In this document: piece after piece, positions 1,441 to 8,921 of the stretch
Layout: every line of letters begins with the position of its first letter
Position numbering within the stretch: the stretch's first letter is position 1
DNA from: Methanospirillum hungatei JF-1
GTDB lineage: Archaea; Halobacteriota; Methanomicrobia; Methanomicrobiales; Methanospirillaceae
Reading direction: 5' to 3'
Assembly: GCF_000013445.1 (NCBI RefSeq)
Contig: NC_007796.1
Location: 124,001 to 188,000, forward strand
DNA length: 64,000 nt
Program-made: the position numbers and the translations under genes
The notes under the pieces: generated by a model
What the model was told of the DNA's origin: nothing
Database searches by the model: none
What the model saw: the letters and a program-made list of their open reading frames with translations, nothing else

Positions 1441-2262
1441 ATGGCAGAGGTTCCGGCAAAACTGGAAAAAGGCGGGTCATGGGTGACCTCACGAATCGAT
1501 ATCGGAAATGACGGTATCGTTCTCAAAGATCCATGGAATGTCACAGTCAGCTACCGGAGTATTGTTGATCTTCAGAAACGCGGACAGATGATCACGCTCC
1601 TCGTCACGATGCCGGACAAGACCGAGCGCCCGTACAAGATCGCATCGGTTGAAAAAGTCCTTACGATTCTTACCAAGAAGATCATCATGGCCTGTAATGC
1701 ATACAGGATCATGGCCCATTTCATGTCACCGGCTATCAGAGGTGGCGTTCTCGTAACTGATGCGAAATGGGAGAAGGGGGCTATTGCAGTTTTAAAGACC
1801 GGCATCTGGTTTGTAAGTCAGGATAAGCAGATTAGCGTGCCGTTAAAAGAGGTCGCAAGTCTTGAGCTGACAAAACGGGAATTACAAAAGAAGAAACTTG
1901 ATGTGATTAAGATCGACCACCTTGAGGGTGGCGAAGTTGTCACCAGTTTCATCCTCTGTCCGCTCTCAACTCTGCAGGTTTTATACAATTTCCTTCGTGA
2001 TGCAACCAAGGATATGGACATGAAAGGGTCTGAGCTGGATCAGCTTGATGCCCAGACTGCCCAGGTCGCCATGCTTATCTACAGCGGAATGGATACGAAA
2101 TCGATTGAAAACATGCTCAGCCTTCCGCCTGAAGAACTGAATGCAATATACGAGACTCTTTTAAAGTTAAAACTCGTGGATGTTGTAATGGTCAGAAAGG
2201 AAGTGCAACTGACTCCGAAGGGTGTCAGATACATCACCGACGCACTCAAGCCACCTTCGTAA
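1441..2262 (+). CDS. cheF: CheF, archaeal chemotaxis adaptor (DUF439)
   Basis: Archaeal-specific protein that links the bacterial-type Che signalling proteins (CheY, CheC, CheD) to the archaellum switch. The 273-residue product matches CheF in length and overall pattern: an N-terminal beta-rich domain, a repeated similar domain, and a C-terminal winged-helix-like segment (about residues 205-270, with EELNAIYETLLKLKLVDV and a GVRYITDAL end). It sits between the archaellum gene end and cheY, which is the usual CheF position in euryarchaeal che loci. A GGAG-type ribosome site (aaaggagact) lies directly before the ATG. Confidence 0.9.
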   Translation: MAEVPAKLEKGGSWVTSRIDIGNDGIVLKDPWNVTVSYRSIVDLQKRGQMITLLVTMPDKTERPYKIASVEKVLTILTKKIIMACNAYRIMAHFMSPAIRGGVLVTDAKWEKGAIAVLKTGIWFVSQDKQISVPLKEVASLELTKRELQKKKLDVIKIDHLEGGEVVTSFILCPLSTLQVLYNFLRDATKDMDMKGSELDQLDAQTAQVAMLIYSGMDTKSIENMLSLPPEELNAIYETLLKLKLVDVVMVRKEVQLTPKGVRYITDALKPPS

Positions 2263-2328: not shown

Positions 2329-2691
2329 ATGGGACGAATCCTGATTGTCGATGATACATTGTTTATGCGGACCTTGCTCAAGAACATACTCAGCTCCGGG
2401 GGACACGAGATCGTCGGGGAAGCTGAAGATGGTGATATCGGCGTTACCAAATACCGAGAATTGAAACCTGACCTTGTTACGATGGATGTGGTCATGCCAA
2501 AGATGAATGGCATTGAGGCATTAAAAGCCATCAAAGCACTTGACGCCAATGCAAAAGTGATCATGTGCACGGCGGTTGGTCAGGAACAGATGGTGAAACT
2601 TGCAATTAAAAGCGGAGCGAGAGGTTATATTGTAAAGCCGTTCCAGGCTCCAAAGGTTCTGGAAGAAATTGGAAATGTCCTTGGTGCTTAA
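2329..2691 (+). CDS. cheY: CheY chemotaxis response regulator
   Basis: Single receiver domain of 120 residues. Canonical residues are present: acidic pair D8-D9 in ILIVDDT, phosphoacceptor D53 in VTMDVVMPKMNG, the conserved Thr/Ala region CTAVG, and the switch Lys in YIVKPF. It would carry the signal from CheA to the archaellum motor through CheF. An aggagg ribosome site precedes the ATG by about 10 bases, and cheB starts four bases after the stop. Confidence 0.95.
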   Translation: MGRILIVDDTLFMRTLLKNILSSGGHEIVGEAEDGDIGVTKYRELKPDLVTMDVVMPKMNGIEALKAIKALDANAKVIMCTAVGQEQMVKLAIKSGARGYIVKPFQAPKVLEEIGNVLGA

Positions 2692-2694
2692 CAC

Positions 2695-3723
2695 ATGATC
2701 AGGGTTCTCGTCATCGACGATTCACTCTTTATCAGGACTGTAGTACAGGACATGCTTTCCGATGATCCGGATATTCAGATTGTTGGTGTCGCATCTGATG
2801 GTCTTGAAGCGCTGGATAAGATCAGGGAACTGAAACCAGATCTTATCACCCTGGACATAGAGATGCCGAGGCTTGACGGATTGTCAATGCTTGAGAGGAA
2901 AAAGGAGATTGACAGGTTTCCTAAAACCTTGGTTTTAAGCTCTTTGACTTCTGAAGGGGCAGAGATGACAAAGCGGGCTATTGCTCTTGGTGCTGATGAC
3001 TTTATGCTGAAACCAAGAGGAATTAAGAATATCCGTGAGATTGGTGGAGAGTTAAAGCATAAAATAAAAAATATCTGTACGATCGCCTACATTACGGCAA
3101 AACCTGTACTAAAGGATAGTAATGCCAGGAATGTTGTGCTTATCGGTTCATCAGCCGGAGGACCACCGATGCTTGATACAATCGTGTCAAAACTACCCTC
3201 AGATCTGAATGCAGCGGTGATTATCACTCAGCACATGCCCAAAGGCGGATTTACTGCAGCACTTGCGGCGCGTCTGAACAGAATCTCACCATTGCAGATT
3301 CGGGAAACGGAGAACGGGGATGTTTTAAAAAACGGTACCGTTCTCGTCTCCAGAGCAGGATTTCATACCATTATTTCGTCTGTCCTTGACAAAGGTGGCA
3401 GTCAGAGTGGCAAAATTATCCTGACAGACTCTCCACCGGTTCATAATGTAAAACCCGCGGTAGATAAGACGTTCATCTCTGCAGCGCAGGTGTTTGGCAA
3501 TCACTGTGTCACCGCAATTTTATCCGGGATGGGAAATGATGGTGGCGAAGGTACCGAGGCGATAAAAAAGGCAGGCGGAGTCACGATAGTATGCAGGGAA
3601 GAGGACTGTCTTGTCTACGGGATGGCGCGTTCAGCATTATCCCGGAACTGTGTGGATCATGTGCTCTCTTTGCAGGCAATTCCTGAAAAGATCGTTGAAA
3701 CTATCAGGGCAATGAACGGGTGA
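2695..3723 (+). CDS. cheB: CheB, receiver-methylesterase
   Basis: Protein-glutamate methylesterase that demethylates (and may deamidate) chemoreceptors. The N-terminal receiver domain (residues 1-120) has LVIDDS and phosphoacceptor D54 in ITLDIEMPRLDG. The C-terminal CheB_methylest domain (about 145-340) shows the catalytic Ser in IGSSAGGPP, the His in ITQHMPKGG and the Asp in LSGMGNDGGEG. Length of 342 residues is normal. It is packed between cheY and cheA with three to four base gaps, consistent with one operon. Confidence 0.96.
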   Translation: MIRVLVIDDSLFIRTVVQDMLSDDPDIQIVGVASDGLEALDKIRELKPDLITLDIEMPRLDGLSMLERKKEIDRFPKTLVLSSLTSEGAEMTKRAIALGADDFMLKPRGIKNIREIGGELKHKIKNICTIAYITAKPVLKDSNARNVVLIGSSAGGPPMLDTIVSKLPSDLNAAVIITQHMPKGGFTAALAARLNRISPLQIRETENGDVLKNGTVLVSRAGFHTIISSVLDKGGSQSGKIILTDSPPVHNVKPAVDKTFISAAQVFGNHCVTAILSGMGNDGGEGTEAIKKAGGVTIVCREEDCLVYGMARSALSRNCVDHVLSLQAIPEKIVETIRAMNG

Positions 3724-3726
3724 ATT

Positions 3727-6700
3727 ATGTCTGATCTGGATGCATACCGGAGTCTCTATGTTGCAGAATCGCGGGAAAACCTTGAGGGTATTGTCAGCAA
3801 TCTTCTAGTTCTGGAAAAGGGTACAGATTCTCATGCGATAGATGAGATCTTCCGGTCTGCTCATTCACTCAAGGGCATGTCTGCATCCATGGGATTTTCA
3901 CACATGGAAGAGATCTGTCATGCTCTTGAGGATGTCTTCTCACAGATCAGGAGTGGCCGACTTGAGGTAACCCAGTCACTGGTTGATGATCTCCTCGGTG
4001 GTGCAGATGATATCGAACTGATGATTGATGAGATCGAGGCTGGTGGTGATGGACAGCTGGATCATAAGGACCAGCGGGTAAAAAGTCTGAAACGCTGGCT
4101 GTCAGCGGATGAAGAGAAGGAGGTGGTAAAACCTGCACCAAAGACCCCTGCACCTATAGAACCTCCCTCATCTGATACAGCTGGTGATATGTATGAAGGT
4201 CCTGCATATGATCAGGATTACGGGTCAGGTTGTCTGACATACACAATAACGTTCTCACTTGCTGACAATGTAGATAACAAAAACCTTCGTGGGATGCTGA
4301 TACTTCAGAATCTGGAAAGTATCGGCGAGATTGTTACCTGTTCTCCTGAACGGACTATCGTTGAGGATGATGAGAATTTCACCGGGAACGTCACCCTGGA
4401 ATTTCGGACAAATGCCGGAAAGAGTGCAATAGAAACCATTCTCGGTGTATCGGATATTAAAACCCGGACGATCTCTGAGCCTGCCATACCCGCTGAAGTA
4501 TCTGGTGTTCCCCAGGCGAAAGATGAACCTGCCATTCCTCTAACAAAGGGTCCTTCAGACACCGGTTTCAGGTATGAAATCCACGTGGAGATTTCGTCTT
4601 CGGTTGATTCACGTAATCTTCGTTCAATGCTGCTCCTTCAGAACCTTGAGGGGCTCGGAACCATTTTACATCTCTCTCCAAAGCGTGAGATCATCGAGGA
4701 TAGCGATACATACAACGGGGTTATGGATATTCTCCTCAGTACAGTCGAGCCACAGGAGAAGATCCATGCCCTGCTCAAGGGTTCAGATATCAAAAATTAT
4801 TCTGTCAGGGTAGAAGTACCCGAGATTTCAAAAGAACCCGGCGCTGCCTTGGAGGGTTCAGATAGTACCTCTTTTGCCGGAATCCGAGCATCATCAGCAG
4901 ATAAGGCAGAGAAAAAACGGGAAGTTAAAAATATCCGGGTTGATATTGACCGGCTTGACCATATGATGAACCTGGTTGAGGATCTGGTCATCAATCGTGG
5001 CCGCCTTGAGCAGATCGCCCAGCAATATAAGATTAAAGAACTCGATGAAACCCTCAACATGGTCGGCAGATCGGTATCTGATCTGCAGGTCATGATGATG
5101 GACATCCGGATGATTCCGCTGAATCATATCTTTAACCGGTTTCCACGAACGGTCCGTGACATTGCTGCCAAAGAAGGAAAAGAAGTTGACTTCGTGGTCG
5201 AGGGTGGTGACACGGAACTTGACCGGTCGGTTATGGACGGTCTGAATGATCCGCTTTTACATCTTATCAGAAACGCTCTTGATCACGGCATTGAACCACC
5301 GGATGTCAGGATAGCAAACGGGAAAAACCCGAAAGGCAGGCTGACCCTCTCCGCATCCAGGGACAAGGATAATGTCATTATTGTCATTGAAGATGACGGT
5401 GGCGGTGTCAACGTTGAGAAGATTAAAAAGAAGGCTATTGAACGGGGTCTTATCACCGAAGAGATTGCAGCATCAATGAGTGATCAGGATGCATATGATC
5501 TCCTCTTCCAGCCCGGGTTTTCAACGGCAGATAAGATCACTGATATCAGCGGCCGGGGGGTAGGCCTCGATGTCGTGAAGACCACAATTGCCTCATTACA
5601 GGGCACAATAAAACTTGAGTCTGTTCCTGGTCAGGGGAGCAGATTTGAGCTGGTCCTGCCTCCGACGATGGCAATTGTGATGGTAATGATGATCCGGATC
5701 AATGGGAAGCGGTGTGCCATCCCGATTACCAACGTTGCTGAGGTTGCAAGCCTTGCTGCATTCCCTATCCAGAACATCGGCAATGGAGAAGGTCTGCTGA
5801 TGCGGGATGAGATCATTGTTCTTTACCGGCTTGATGATATGTTAGGCCGATCCAAGTCAGAAGAGGTCATCGTCGTTCTTCAGAATGGGAACCGGAAGGG
5901 TGCCATCATCGCAGATCTCATTGAAGGGCAGCAGGAGGTGGTTATAAAACCACTTTCGAAGTTTGTCGGAGCATGTGAGGGTGTCAGTGGTGTTACGATT
6001 CCAGGTGACGGGGAAGTAGTGCCGGTTCTTGATGTGAAGGCAATTCTTCGGGAAGGAGGACAGAAATCCGGACGAAAATCAGGCGGAAGGAGGGTGAAAA
6101 AGATGATAAAAAATGTGATAGCAGACGGAGATCTGGCTATTAGTGAACAACAGGCCGATGAACTGAGGGAACTTGGAAATATTGGCGCAGCTCATGCTGC
6201 AACAACCCTGTCTACAATTCTGAGTACGATGATACAGATCCGGGTGCCTGAGATCATCCTGGTCAATCTTGCGAATCTGCGCAATTATCTTGATGATGTC
6301 ATGGCCGCCATGACGGTCTTTCAGATACAGGGCCAGATCAAAGGTGAAGGGTATCTTATACTGCACATTCCTGAGGATTCGATCATCAGGCTTACCAATA
6401 TCATGATTGGGACGACTGAGCTGAACCGGGAGATTGATGACATGGACCGGAGTGCCATCAATGAGATCGGGAATATTATGACCTCATCGTTCCTTGATGC
6501 ATGTGCCACTTTGCTGAATATCATCATGATCCCCTCCCCTCCCTCTATGGTCATTGATATGCCTCATGCTGCGCTTGAATCCATTATTGCTACCCAAGAG
6601 ATTAAGGAGAATGTTGATGAAGTGGTGTTGTTCAGGACTGAACTGACCTGTGCAACCCATGAGATTAAAGCAAATATAATCCTCCTTCCAAGCAGATCCC

Positions 6701-6759
6701 TGCTTGCAGAAATTTTTGCCAGAATGGAGAATGTCATAGCGGTAGCAAAATCAGGCTGA
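3727..6759 (+). CDS. cheA: CheA histidine kinase with duplicated middle domain and fused C-terminal CheC phosphatase
   Basis: Central kinase of the chemosensory array. Domains: Hpt/P1 (1-105) with phosphorylatable H46 in RSAHSLKG; two similar P2-like domains (about 169-250 and 281-362) sharing an NLRxMLxLQNLE core; P3 dimerisation (about 401-470); P4 ATPase (about 475-645) with HLIRNALDHGIE, EDDGGGV and ISGRGVGLDVVK; P5 CheW-like domain (about 648-775). After a basic linker (about 778-797) a complete CheC domain follows (801-1007), with both active-site pairs: E815/N818 in ELGNIGAAHA and E913/N916 in NEIGNIM. At 1010 residues it is far longer than a usual CheA (650-750). The reading frame is uninterrupted and the gene is tightly coupled to cheB and cheD. 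Confidence 0.95.
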   Translation: MSDLDAYRSLYVAESRENLEGIVSNLLVLEKGTDSHAIDEIFRSAHSLKGMSASMGFSHMEEICHALEDVFSQIRSGRLEVTQSLVDDLLGGADDIELMIDEIEAGGDGQLDHKDQRVKSLKRWLSADEEKEVVKPAPKTPAPIEPPSSDTAGDMYEGPAYDQDYGSGCLTYTITFSLADNVDNKNLRGMLILQNLESIGEIVTCSPERTIVEDDENFTGNVTLEFRTNAGKSAIETILGVSDIKTRTISEPAIPAEVSGVPQAKDEPAIPLTKGPSDTGFRYEIHVEISSSVDSRNLRSMLLLQNLEGLGTILHLSPKREIIEDSDTYNGVMDILLSTVEPQEKIHALLKGSDIKNYSVRVEVPEISKEPGAALEGSDSTSFAGIRASSADKAEKKREVKNIRVDIDRLDHMMNLVEDLVINRGRLEQIAQQYKIKELDETLNMVGRSVSDLQVMMMDIRMIPLNHIFNRFPRTVRDIAAKEGKEVDFVVEGGDTELDRSVMDGLNDPLLHLIRNALDHGIEPPDVRIANGKNPKGRLTLSASRDKDNVIIVIEDDGGGVNVEKIKKKAIERGLITEEIAASMSDQDAYDLLFQPGFSTADKITDISGRGVGLDVVKTTIASLQGTIKLESVPGQGSRFELVLPPTMAIVMVMMIRINGKRCAIPITNVAEVASLAAFPIQNIGNGEGLLMRDEIIVLYRLDDMLGRSKSEEVIVVLQNGNRKGAIIADLIEGQQEVVIKPLSKFVGACEGVSGVTIPGDGEVVPVLDVKAILREGGQKSGRKSGGRRVKKMIKNVIADGDLAISEQQADELRELGNIGAAHAATTLSTILSTMIQIRVPEIILVNLANLRNYLDDVMAAMTVFQIQGQIKGEGYLILHIPEDSIIRLTNIMIGTTELNREIDDMDRSAINEIGNIMTSSFLDACATLLNIIMIPSPPSMVIDMPHAALESIIATQEIKENVDEVVLFRTELTCATHEIKANIILLPSRSLLAEIFARMENVIAVAKSG

Positions 6760-6764
6760 ATTGA

Positions 6765-7265
6765 ATGAGCGAGACAATTACCGGCAGTGACCAGCGTGAG
6801 GTCATCATCATCGGTATTGGTGAATGGAGTACAGGGGATACTGTCATGACATCCATAGGTCTTGGTTCCTGCATCGGTCTTGTAATCCATGATGAAACAC
6901 GAAAGATCGGTGGTCTTGCCCATGTCATGCTTCCAAAATCAAGCGGGAAACCAAATGAAAGGGCGGGAAAATACGCTGATACCGCGGTTGAAGTTCTGAT
7001 TAAGGAACTTACGCAAAAAGGAAGCAAGGTAAGCAACCTGAAGGCAAAACTTGCCGGTGGCGCCTCCATGTTTCAGAACTTTTCAGGAAACCTGAATATC
7101 GGTGAGCGGAATGCTGAAGCACTCAAGGCCATCTTAAAAGAATTATCCATCCCAATTGTCCGGGAAGACCTGGGCGGGACCATTGGAAGGACAGTAACCT
7201 ATTATCCAAAAGAAAACGGCCGGTTAGTCATCAGGCAGGCTGACGGAACAACAAGAGAAATTTAA
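6765..7265 (+). CDS. cheD: CheD, receptor glutamine deamidase / CheC partner
   Basis: Deamidates receptor glutamines and, as known for Bacillus and Thermotoga, binds CheC and stimulates it. The 166-residue protein shows the family signature: catalytic Cys in [12 protein letters not shown], His in [11 protein letters not shown], and a later [11 protein letters not shown] motif. It starts five bases after the cheA-cheC stop. The neighbouring CheC domain, which is fused to CheA, is therefore the obvious partner. A T-run directly after the stop and the convergent TPR-CheC gene mark the operon end. Confidence 0.95.
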
Positions 7266-7275
7266 ATTTTTTTAC
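7263..7275 (+). terminator. T-run terminator after cheD
   Basis: The cheD stop is followed at once by a run of T (aaatttttttac). Archaeal transcription commonly ends at such T-runs without a required hairpin. It lies between two convergent genes. Confidence 0.45.
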
Positions 7276-8921
7276 ATCCCTGCCGCTGAATCTTCGATTA
7301 TCTTTTCAAGCATCTTAACGATATCAAGCAAGACCGGCGGGTTTGGCAGCATAAATATGTTCAGACTGAGCTCATGTTCATCACATATCAGTTCAGTCTT
7401 GAAAAAGACAACATTATCATAGAGAATATTGCTTTCTTTAATCACAAGATCAAAGACATTTTTCGGGAGATCAAAAATTGTCCTGGGTGGTGAGGGAAGC
7501 ATAATAATTCCCAGTAATTCTGCAGTGCCATCAAGAAAGGCCGATACCATGATGTTCCCTATCTCATTGATGGCACTCTCATCCATCTCATTAAGCGGCC
7601 GGTCAGGTTCAATGGGCAGTCCAAGCATGATACTGGTCATCTGAATGACTGACTCCTGTGGGACATGGAGGATGACATACCCGGCTTTTGCCATCTGACC
7701 TTCCATGGTAAAGACGACCATGGCAGAAAGGCCCTGTTCAATCTGCTCATTAATGGCATGAAGGTCTACGATACTTATCTCCGGAACATTCAGCATTATG
7801 GGGGTGTTCAGCATCGTGGAGAGCGTGGTTGCTGCATGAGAAGCACCAATATTCCCTAGTTCCCTGAGCGCATCTTTTTGATTATCATTCAGATCTACCC
7901 GGAAATCTTTGATTGATTTATCTTTCATAGTATTGGTTAGCGGTGCTGCCCCAGTCCGGGGAATTTGTTCCTCAGCCGGGTTCTGTTCAGTATCAGCGGT
8001 TCCATCTTCAGGGATCTCATCCTTGTATTGCATGAGGATGCTCATGACCGGATCATCAGCAGATATTCCGGGTTCCGGTACCGGCTTTGATGGTTTTTTC
8101 TCTGGTTCGCTGCTCTCTTCTGATGAAGGTTCCTGGTCAGAAGAGTACTGGGCGAGGATGGACATAACAATATCTGCTTCAGTCTGGGGTTTTTGAGGTT
8201 CAGATGGTTTTACCCCCGGAGTCTTTTCCTCTGGTACGGGTGATTCTTCATATAACTCATCATCAGTCAGTGCATGTGCAGTTCTTACCGGTTCAGAAGG
8301 AGTTTTATCAGATGGGGATGCGGTTTCCCGTTTAGGCTGGCCTTCAAAGGACTGGCATCGCTCCAGATGCTCTTTTGCCACCGGATCAGCCGCATAAATT
8401 CCGAGGGCCTCTTCAAATGCTCTGCACGCAAGAGAGTATTCTCCCAGTTCCTCGTATGAAAGACCAATTTTAATAAACGGTTCAATAAAATCCGGGTGAA
8501 TGGCGCTGGCGGATTCAAAATACTGGATCGCCGCATAGTAGTTTTTCTGGTCCATGAGGAGATTCCCCCATTGCATGTACCTGATATAAATCTCCTCTTC
8601 AGGCCTGGACCGGTATTTCGGACGGTATTGATCGGTTTTCACTCCGGGACGCATCAGGAGTGTGAGGTTTTTGCGTGCGACCGGGTTCTCTGGGTCAATA
8701 TCAAGTGCTGTCGTGAAACACTTTCTCGCATGGGAAAACCTTCCCATTTTTACATAGGTATACCCGAGATTTATTATCGCAGCAACATTATCCGGGTCCT
8801 GTGTGAAGGCTTTCCTGAATAAAAATGATGCCTGATCATAGTCCTTCCTTTCAAGGGCTGATTCACCCATACGGAGTAGATTTCTGACCTCCCGGCGTAA
8901 TGCGGCATCCATAGCAATCAA
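7272..8921 (-). CDS. TPR-CheC fusion protein
   Basis: The 549-residue product combines tetratricopeptide repeats with a CheC phosphatase domain. TPR units occupy about residues 15-190 (for example AAIINLGYTYVKMGRFSHA). A Pro/Glu/Ser-rich linker (190-335) holds two copies of a D-x-V-M-S-I-L-x-Q-Y motif (about 249-259 and 290-299). The CheC domain (341-549) has both active-site pairs: E354/N357 in RELGNIGASHA and E453/N456 in NEIGNIMVS. It is close in sequence to the CheC domain fused to CheA, so the two probably arose by duplication. It is encoded opposite the che operon and ends seven bases from cheD. A start at 8912 (MDAALRRE) is also possible. Its role is probably CheY-P dephosphorylation at a TPR-bound site (inference). 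Confidence 0.93.
   Translation of the reverse strand: MIAMDAALRREVRNLLRMGESALERKDYDQASFLFRKAFTQDPDNVAAIINLGYTYVKMGRFSHARKCFTTALDIDPENPVARKNLTLLMRPGVKTDQYRPKYRSRPEEEIYIRYMQWGNLLMDQKNYYAAIQYFESASAIHPDFIEPFIKIGLSYEELGEYSLACRAFEEALGIYAADPVAKEHLERCQSFEGQPKRETASPSDKTPSEPVRTAHALTDDELYEESPVPEEKTPGVKPSEPQKPQTEADIVMSILAQYSSDQEPSSEESSEPEKKPSKPVPEPGISADDPVMSILMQYKDEIPEDGTADTEQNPAEEQIPRTGAAPLTNTMKDKSIKDFRVDLNDNQKDALRELGNIGASHAATTLSTMLNTPIMLNVPEISIVDLHAINEQIEQGLSAMVVFTMEGQMAKAGYVILHVPQESVIQMTSIMLGLPIEPDRPLNEMDESAINEIGNIMVSAFLDGTAELLGIIMLPSPPRTIFDLPKNVFDLVIKESNILYDNVVFFKTELICDEHELSLNIFMLPNPPVLLDIVKMLEKIIEDSAAGM

Follow-up and report, generated by a model that had tools for sequence, protein, structure and literature searches.

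In Methanospirillum hungatei JF-1, the chemotaxis kinase CheA and a complete CheC domain are encoded by one gene, and the product is probably an array kinase with a covalently tethered CheC, derived from a single ancestral fusion. The gene was identified in a 64,000-nucleotide stretch of the genome (the window; NC_007796.1, positions 124,001 to 188,000), and its domains, its neighbors and related genes elsewhere in the genome are listed in Table 1.

Table 1. Features of the cheA-cheC locus and related genes of M. hungatei (positions in the window, unless a locus or contig handle is given).
Feature	Position	Strand	Basis or remark
cheF (archaellum switch adaptor), upstream of fusion	1441..2262	+	PF04283
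cheY, upstream of fusion	2329..2691	+	Pfam
cheB, upstream of fusion	2695..3723	+	Pfam
cheA-cheC fusion gene, 1010 aa: P1-P2-P2-P3-P4-P5-linker-CheC	3727..6759	+	uninterrupted ATG-TGA frame
P1 (Hpt) domain, residues 7-105	3745..4041	+	PF01627
First P2 domain, residues 171-250	4237..4476	+	best of two PF07194 stretches
Second P2 domain, ~residues 281-362	4567..4812	+	second PF07194 stretch
P3-P4-P5 kinase core, residues 403-776	4933..6054	+	PF02895, PF02518, PF01584
Basic P5-to-CheC linker, residues 777-802, about 30 residues	6055..6132	+	variable, low-complexity; dN far over flanking domains
Internal Shine-Dalgarno-like sequence AAGGAGGGTGA inside linker	6087..6097	+	ranks first among 50 in-frame starts (anti-SD pairing, -12.1 kcal/mol)
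Candidate internal start codon ATG (Met793) of free 218-aa CheC	6103..6105	+	
CheC domain, residues 803-1010, active-site pairs E815/N818 and E913/N916	6133..6756	+	both CheC repeats in Pfam
cheD, 5 nt past fusion gene	6765..7265	+	PF03975; NCBIfam CheD matches
Convergent gene, TPR repeats fused to second complete CheC	7272..8921	-	PF07719/PF00515 and PF04509
Free CheC, 218 aa	G000:C1:1296061-1296690 (L180 6038-6694)	-	inside fused-CheC clade
Hybrid CheA-REC kinases (two)	L186 1773-4169; L187 1585-3879	- (both)	CheW and Pfam scans
CheX-like proteins (two), close to sensor kinase, about 2.95 Mb	L188 1475-2086 and 3624-4223	+	

According to Pfam, the CheA core domains P1, P3, P4 and P5 occur in canonical order, the class II architecture of CheA, with core boundaries at residues 403-460 (H-kinase_dim/P3), 508-646 (HATPase_c/P4) and 653-776 (CheW/P5). 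The first-pass annotation had described one 1010-residue frame encoding P1-P5 and then a full CheC, and the Pfam domains and the unbroken frame agree with it; a stop codon or frameshift at the P5-CheC junction was looked for and found neither in the M. hungatei frame nor in its fused relatives. CheA core and CheC within one polypeptide constitute the CheA-CheC/CheX fusion architecture. While this layout was right, the annotation had overlooked a duplication of P2. The second P2 resembles the first in fold in a full-length AF2 model, the pTM of which (0.28) is too poor for placing CheC relative to the kinase. For the predicted autokinase activity and phosphotransfer to CheY, P1 residue H46 and the P4 motifs are invariant across 8 fused homologues.

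The predicted fold of the C-terminal part of the fusion is confirmed as that of CheC. An AF2 model of residues 780-1010 (pLDDT 83.9) has 1xkr and 2f9z as its closest PDB structures (Foldseek E about 1e-16; TM 0.83 by target vs 1xkr), and the CheC part matches Thermotoga maritima CheC (1xkr) across its full length (phmmer 2.9e-21). It consists of two CheC repeats, each with the E-x-x-N pair that characterizes CheC phosphatases. These pairs lie at 815/818 and 913/916, as had been claimed, and are invariant in the 8 fused homologues; the corresponding columns show no variation across the 26 CheC domains aligned. Between Methanospirillum species, the P2 domains (dN 0.21-0.38) and the linker (0.16-0.20) have higher values than CheC (0.042-0.074), P3-P4 (0.041-0.047) and P5 (0.028-0.043) (ranges from three species pairs; dS was saturated, so dN alone was used rather than dN/dS). 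The CheC values are close to those of the kinase core and therefore indicate kinase-like purifying selection on the CheC domain, so that the fused CheC, evolving as slowly as the kinase core, appears to be functional. We infer that the fusion protein hydrolyzes CheY-P and docks CheD.

A flaD-like gene, like cheF, cheY and cheB, is found upstream of the fusion. Downstream, cheD is encoded next, as the first-pass annotation had it, and is the next gene in every fused locus covering that side. The CheD motif reads SIGLGSC, with a Ser six residues ahead of the catalytic Cys, a position at which Thr is presumably the usual residue (T. maritima triad). The convergent TPR-CheC gene is kept throughout the genus Methanospirillum and in G017, a related metagenome-assembled genome (MAG); its CheC forms a clade of its own (100/100), and it is a candidate motor- or complex-localized phosphatase. 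Besides this adjoining protein, the other CheC-type proteins of the genome are one free CheC and two CheX-like proteins; in the first of these two (L188 1475-2086), the first half no longer contains its E-x-x-N (ELITIG). A search with H-kinase_dim suggested that the fusion is the sole CheA of the genome; CheW/Pfam scans reveal two hybrid CheA-REC kinases as well, in agreement with the 3 CheA counted in the M. hungatei genome paper (PMC4704411). Each hybrid adjoins an MCP, both are without P2 or CheC, and they probably belong to non-archaellum chemosensory systems.

The search for such fusions that the first-pass annotation had called for was run on 232 Methanomicrobiales genomes. The fusion is present in 12/12 Methanospirillum species genomes and in G017, G020 and G027, which are Methanospirillaceae and Methanomicrobiales MAGs representing three sister lineages; two further single-contig genomes are among the carriers. 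In G002 and in half of G011 the gene lies only partly on the contig, and the fusion was scored where the junction was sequenced. No fused frame was found beyond these lineages among the 232 genomes, nor elsewhere in the phylum in 393 sampled genomes at E <= 1e-65, a cut-off that very divergent fusions outside Methanomicrobiales could escape. In other genera (G227, G054, G042, G057, G221 and G222), long matches scored high for open frames but contain stop codons, and they were rejected as fusions. The G017 protein (L050 5939-9310, + strand) is 1123 aa long, with a longer P1-P3 stretch and possibly extra P2 copies.

In the unfused Methanomicrobiales relatives examined, cheA and cheC are separate and adjacent, 1-30 nt apart, and cheD follows cheC where the locus was mapped further; the fused locus keeps this ancestral order, cheY-cheB-cheA-cheC-cheD. 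The two genes share a frame with one intervening stop codon in genera g5 and g12, Methanolinea (G077, G078) and G039/G044. The cheA stop of genus g5 (L087-L098, L117), an amber codon retained by many species, is a TAG followed by GAG or GTG and overlaps the Shine-Dalgarno sequence of cheC (TAGGAG/TAGGTG). Its conservation is attributable to this double use, and TAG read-through from cheA into cheC was rejected on the same ground. The fused proteins form one clade in the kinase-core tree (94/77; 92% of bootstrap trees), and the fused CheC domains cluster as well in the CheC tree, in agreement with the CheA tree. The simplest reading of these sequences is a single fusion event in the ancestor of Methanospirillum and the three sister lineages. 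Comparative genomics shows that it arose by removal of the stop codon, or of the frame break, that had separated the neighboring cheA and cheC genes of the archaellum-linked che operon.

CheA-CheC most likely acts as the receptor-array kinase, with CheC attached to the C-terminal end of P5 through a linker that is flexible and basic. Such a tether would keep CheC at the site of CheY-P production and of contact between CheD and the receptors; CheC would then remove CheY-P locally and bind CheD in a CheY-P-dependent manner, feeding output back on receptor activity. This action on CheY-P and CheD at the array is extrapolated from the CheC/CheD biology of Bacillus subtilis and T. maritima. The other CheC-type proteins (TPR-CheC, the free CheC and perhaps a CheC made from an internal start) would be left for the cytoplasm or motor, a plausible division of labor. 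H. salinarum has three CheCs with distinct partners, one of which is CheF near the motor (PMC3579733), and co-localized kinase and phosphatase sharpen the response of E. coli (PMC2673030). The intact kinase-core and CheC domains with their catalytic residues, the CheC fold, the clade-wide retention and the adjacent cheD argue for an array tether. Against it, the linker is only about 30 residues long, most of the phosphatase activity may come from the other CheC-type proteins, and CheC is a weak phosphatase in B. subtilis (PMC3513319). The built-in balance of CheY phosphorylation and dephosphorylation in one molecule that the first-pass annotation proposed is plausible and matches the proposal published for the CheA-CheC/CheX proteins of Leptospirae (PMC10542144); a fixed 1:1 ratio of kinase to phosphatase is improbable, because of the other CheC-type proteins and an apparent internal start of the CheC part.

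This putative internal start consists of a Shine-Dalgarno-like sequence and start codon conserved in the linker of the Methanospirillum genes; the M. hungatei DNA at 6085-6105 reads GGAAGGAGGGTGAAAAAG-ATG. Ranked against every ATG, GTG and TTG codon in frame within its fused gene, the linker site came 1-3 among 29-57 starts in 11/11 Methanospirillum genes having the linker, at -8.5 to -12.1 kcal/mol vs -4.6 to -9.9 for the annotated che starts of M. hungatei. Codons 789-790 coincide with the Shine-Dalgarno sequence, which is why these columns were picked for a codon test within one alignment of ten Methanospirillum species: R789 (AGG) is the sole single-codon column among 39 conserved Arg columns, V790 (GTG) is one of two among 53 Val columns (the other is V12), and the adjacent Lys and Gly codons vary. 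The start codon shifts between 793 and 794 across species, yet one is always retained. Most species have little structure at the site (z up to +2.5), although A-richness may account for this. The G-R-R-V-K-K peptide itself favors codons of this kind, and synonymous shuffles, an independent test that is less sharp than the codon columns, gave p = 0.008 for M. hungatei and 0.04-0.27 for the other species, which are not independent. The ancestral cheC ribosome-binding site is complete and in frame in G027, but the internal site is weak in G020 and absent from G017, which has no start in its linker. Given the Shine-Dalgarno/ATG pair with its synonymously near-invariant codons, the gene may also make free CheC, a prediction likely enough to test.

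The genome also contains a free CheC of the same length as Met793-1010, which together with its orthologues nests inside the fused-CheC clade of the CheC tree. It starts at the same Met; its N-terminus MSSKIITDGTEIL aligns with the linker after Met793 MVKNVVTDGDLVI, and it shares 13 linker residues that are not found in operonic CheCs of unfused relatives. The nesting and the shared linker stretch therefore indicate that it is derived from the C-terminal portion of the fusion protein, beginning at the internal start. Its first active site is ELGD vs ELGN, an N-to-D change seen in M. hungatei only, among the orthologues checked. It may thus be, at somewhat less than an even chance, that the gene is nested, yielding full-length CheA-CheC and a free CheC of about 218 aa in a ratio set by initiation in the linker; this is compatible with the array tether, and both can hold together. 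A fuller history, held a shade more tentatively still, is that the cheA stop was lost while selection kept the old cheC ribosome-binding site in the linker, setting the ratio of tethered to free CheC per transcript, and that the released part was later duplicated as the free CheC with its linker-remnant N-terminus.

It is less likely that the main role of the fused CheC is to anchor CheD, in which case it would hold CheD at the array and free it to the receptors according to CheY-P, while TPR-CheC or free CheC hydrolyze CheY-P. The weak phosphatase activity of B. subtilis CheC matters little for chemotaxis and is far outweighed by its binding of CheD, which matters most (PMC3513319); these data make CheD tethering at least as likely a reason for the fusion. 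The constant position of cheD beside the fused gene and the VIDM aspartate on the conserved face of CheC (Asp944 here), invariant in 26 CheCs, are consistent with an anchor. On the other hand, the fused CheC retains all four catalytic residues without exception and one is lost from the M. hungatei free paralogue, so the fused copy looks to be the more intact enzyme. A neutral fusion, in which adjacent co-translated genes were joined with function unchanged, is unlikely: cheA and cheC are indeed adjacent and often one stop codon from joining, but every species of the clade has kept the fusion, and the re-creation of a free CheC by duplication of the fused domain suggests that the fused form could not do everything. 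A sequencing or assembly artefact joining two genes is effectively ruled out, as 15 genomes from many sources carry the same fusion with intact frames.

The first-pass annotation held that CheC is normally a separate protein. This is true of the other Methanomicrobiales loci examined but not everywhere, since CheA-CheC/CheX fusions, with a proposed dual kinase/phosphatase function, have been reported, only for Leptospirae (F1 CheAs; Berry, Andrianova, Zhulin, 2023, PMC10542144). Compared by description, these proteins likewise carry a CheC/CheX-type phosphatase domain on CheA in one polypeptide; they are bacterial, however, and a linker, an operon origin and a possible internal start are absent from their description (PMC10542144). 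The in-operon origin within Methanomicrobiales argues for an origin independent of the Leptospirae fusions. Stand-alone archaeal and Thermotoga CheC (1xkr, 2f9z) has the same two-fold CheC with two E/N pairs and CheD nearby but, unlike the fusion, is a separate protein without an attached kinase. In E. coli, the phosphatase CheZ is likewise held at the kinase array, through the short form of CheA (PMC2673030), and cheA makes two products via an internal start, as proposed for cheA-cheC; however, CheZ is unrelated to CheC and held non-covalently, and short CheA is a CheA without its N-terminal part rather than a free phosphatase. FliY is also a CheC-like fold fused to another domain, and internal initiation yields a C-terminal product from the gene for Spa33 and perhaps from that for T. 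maritima FliY (PMC4832279). FliY and Spa33/FliN-type proteins are motor or secretion C-ring components in which no kinase is involved. CheA3 of Rhodobacter sphaeroides has, to our knowledge, no CheC domain. As proposed for the fusion, it is a chemotaxis kinase that is also a phosphatase, going by a title cited in PMC10542144.

The survey that reported the Leptospirae fusions covered archaea and makes no mention of an archaeal case (PMC10542144); the M. hungatei genome paper gives che gene counts and leaves the fusion unmentioned (PMC4704411), as does the main text of a survey of archaeal two-component systems (PMC5847659). An archaeal CheA-CheC fusion thus appears to be undescribed so far, and the Shine-Dalgarno/ATG pair in the linker, the distant free CheC nested in the fused clade and the convergent TPR-CheC are new here.

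Chemotaxis systems are considered to follow a general rule of design by which the phosphatase is kept near the kinase or motor (PMC2666748, PMC2673030), and in this clade of swimming methanogens a covalent tether of phosphatase to kinase has evolved. Living relatives show all the intermediate states: genes out of frame, one stop apart, fused and released again. If the nested reading is true, this would be a gene fusion in which a signaling phosphatase continues to exist both fused and unfused. The effect of the position of the phosphatase, and the role of CheC as phosphatase or CheD anchor, would be testable by shifting one stop codon or internal start.
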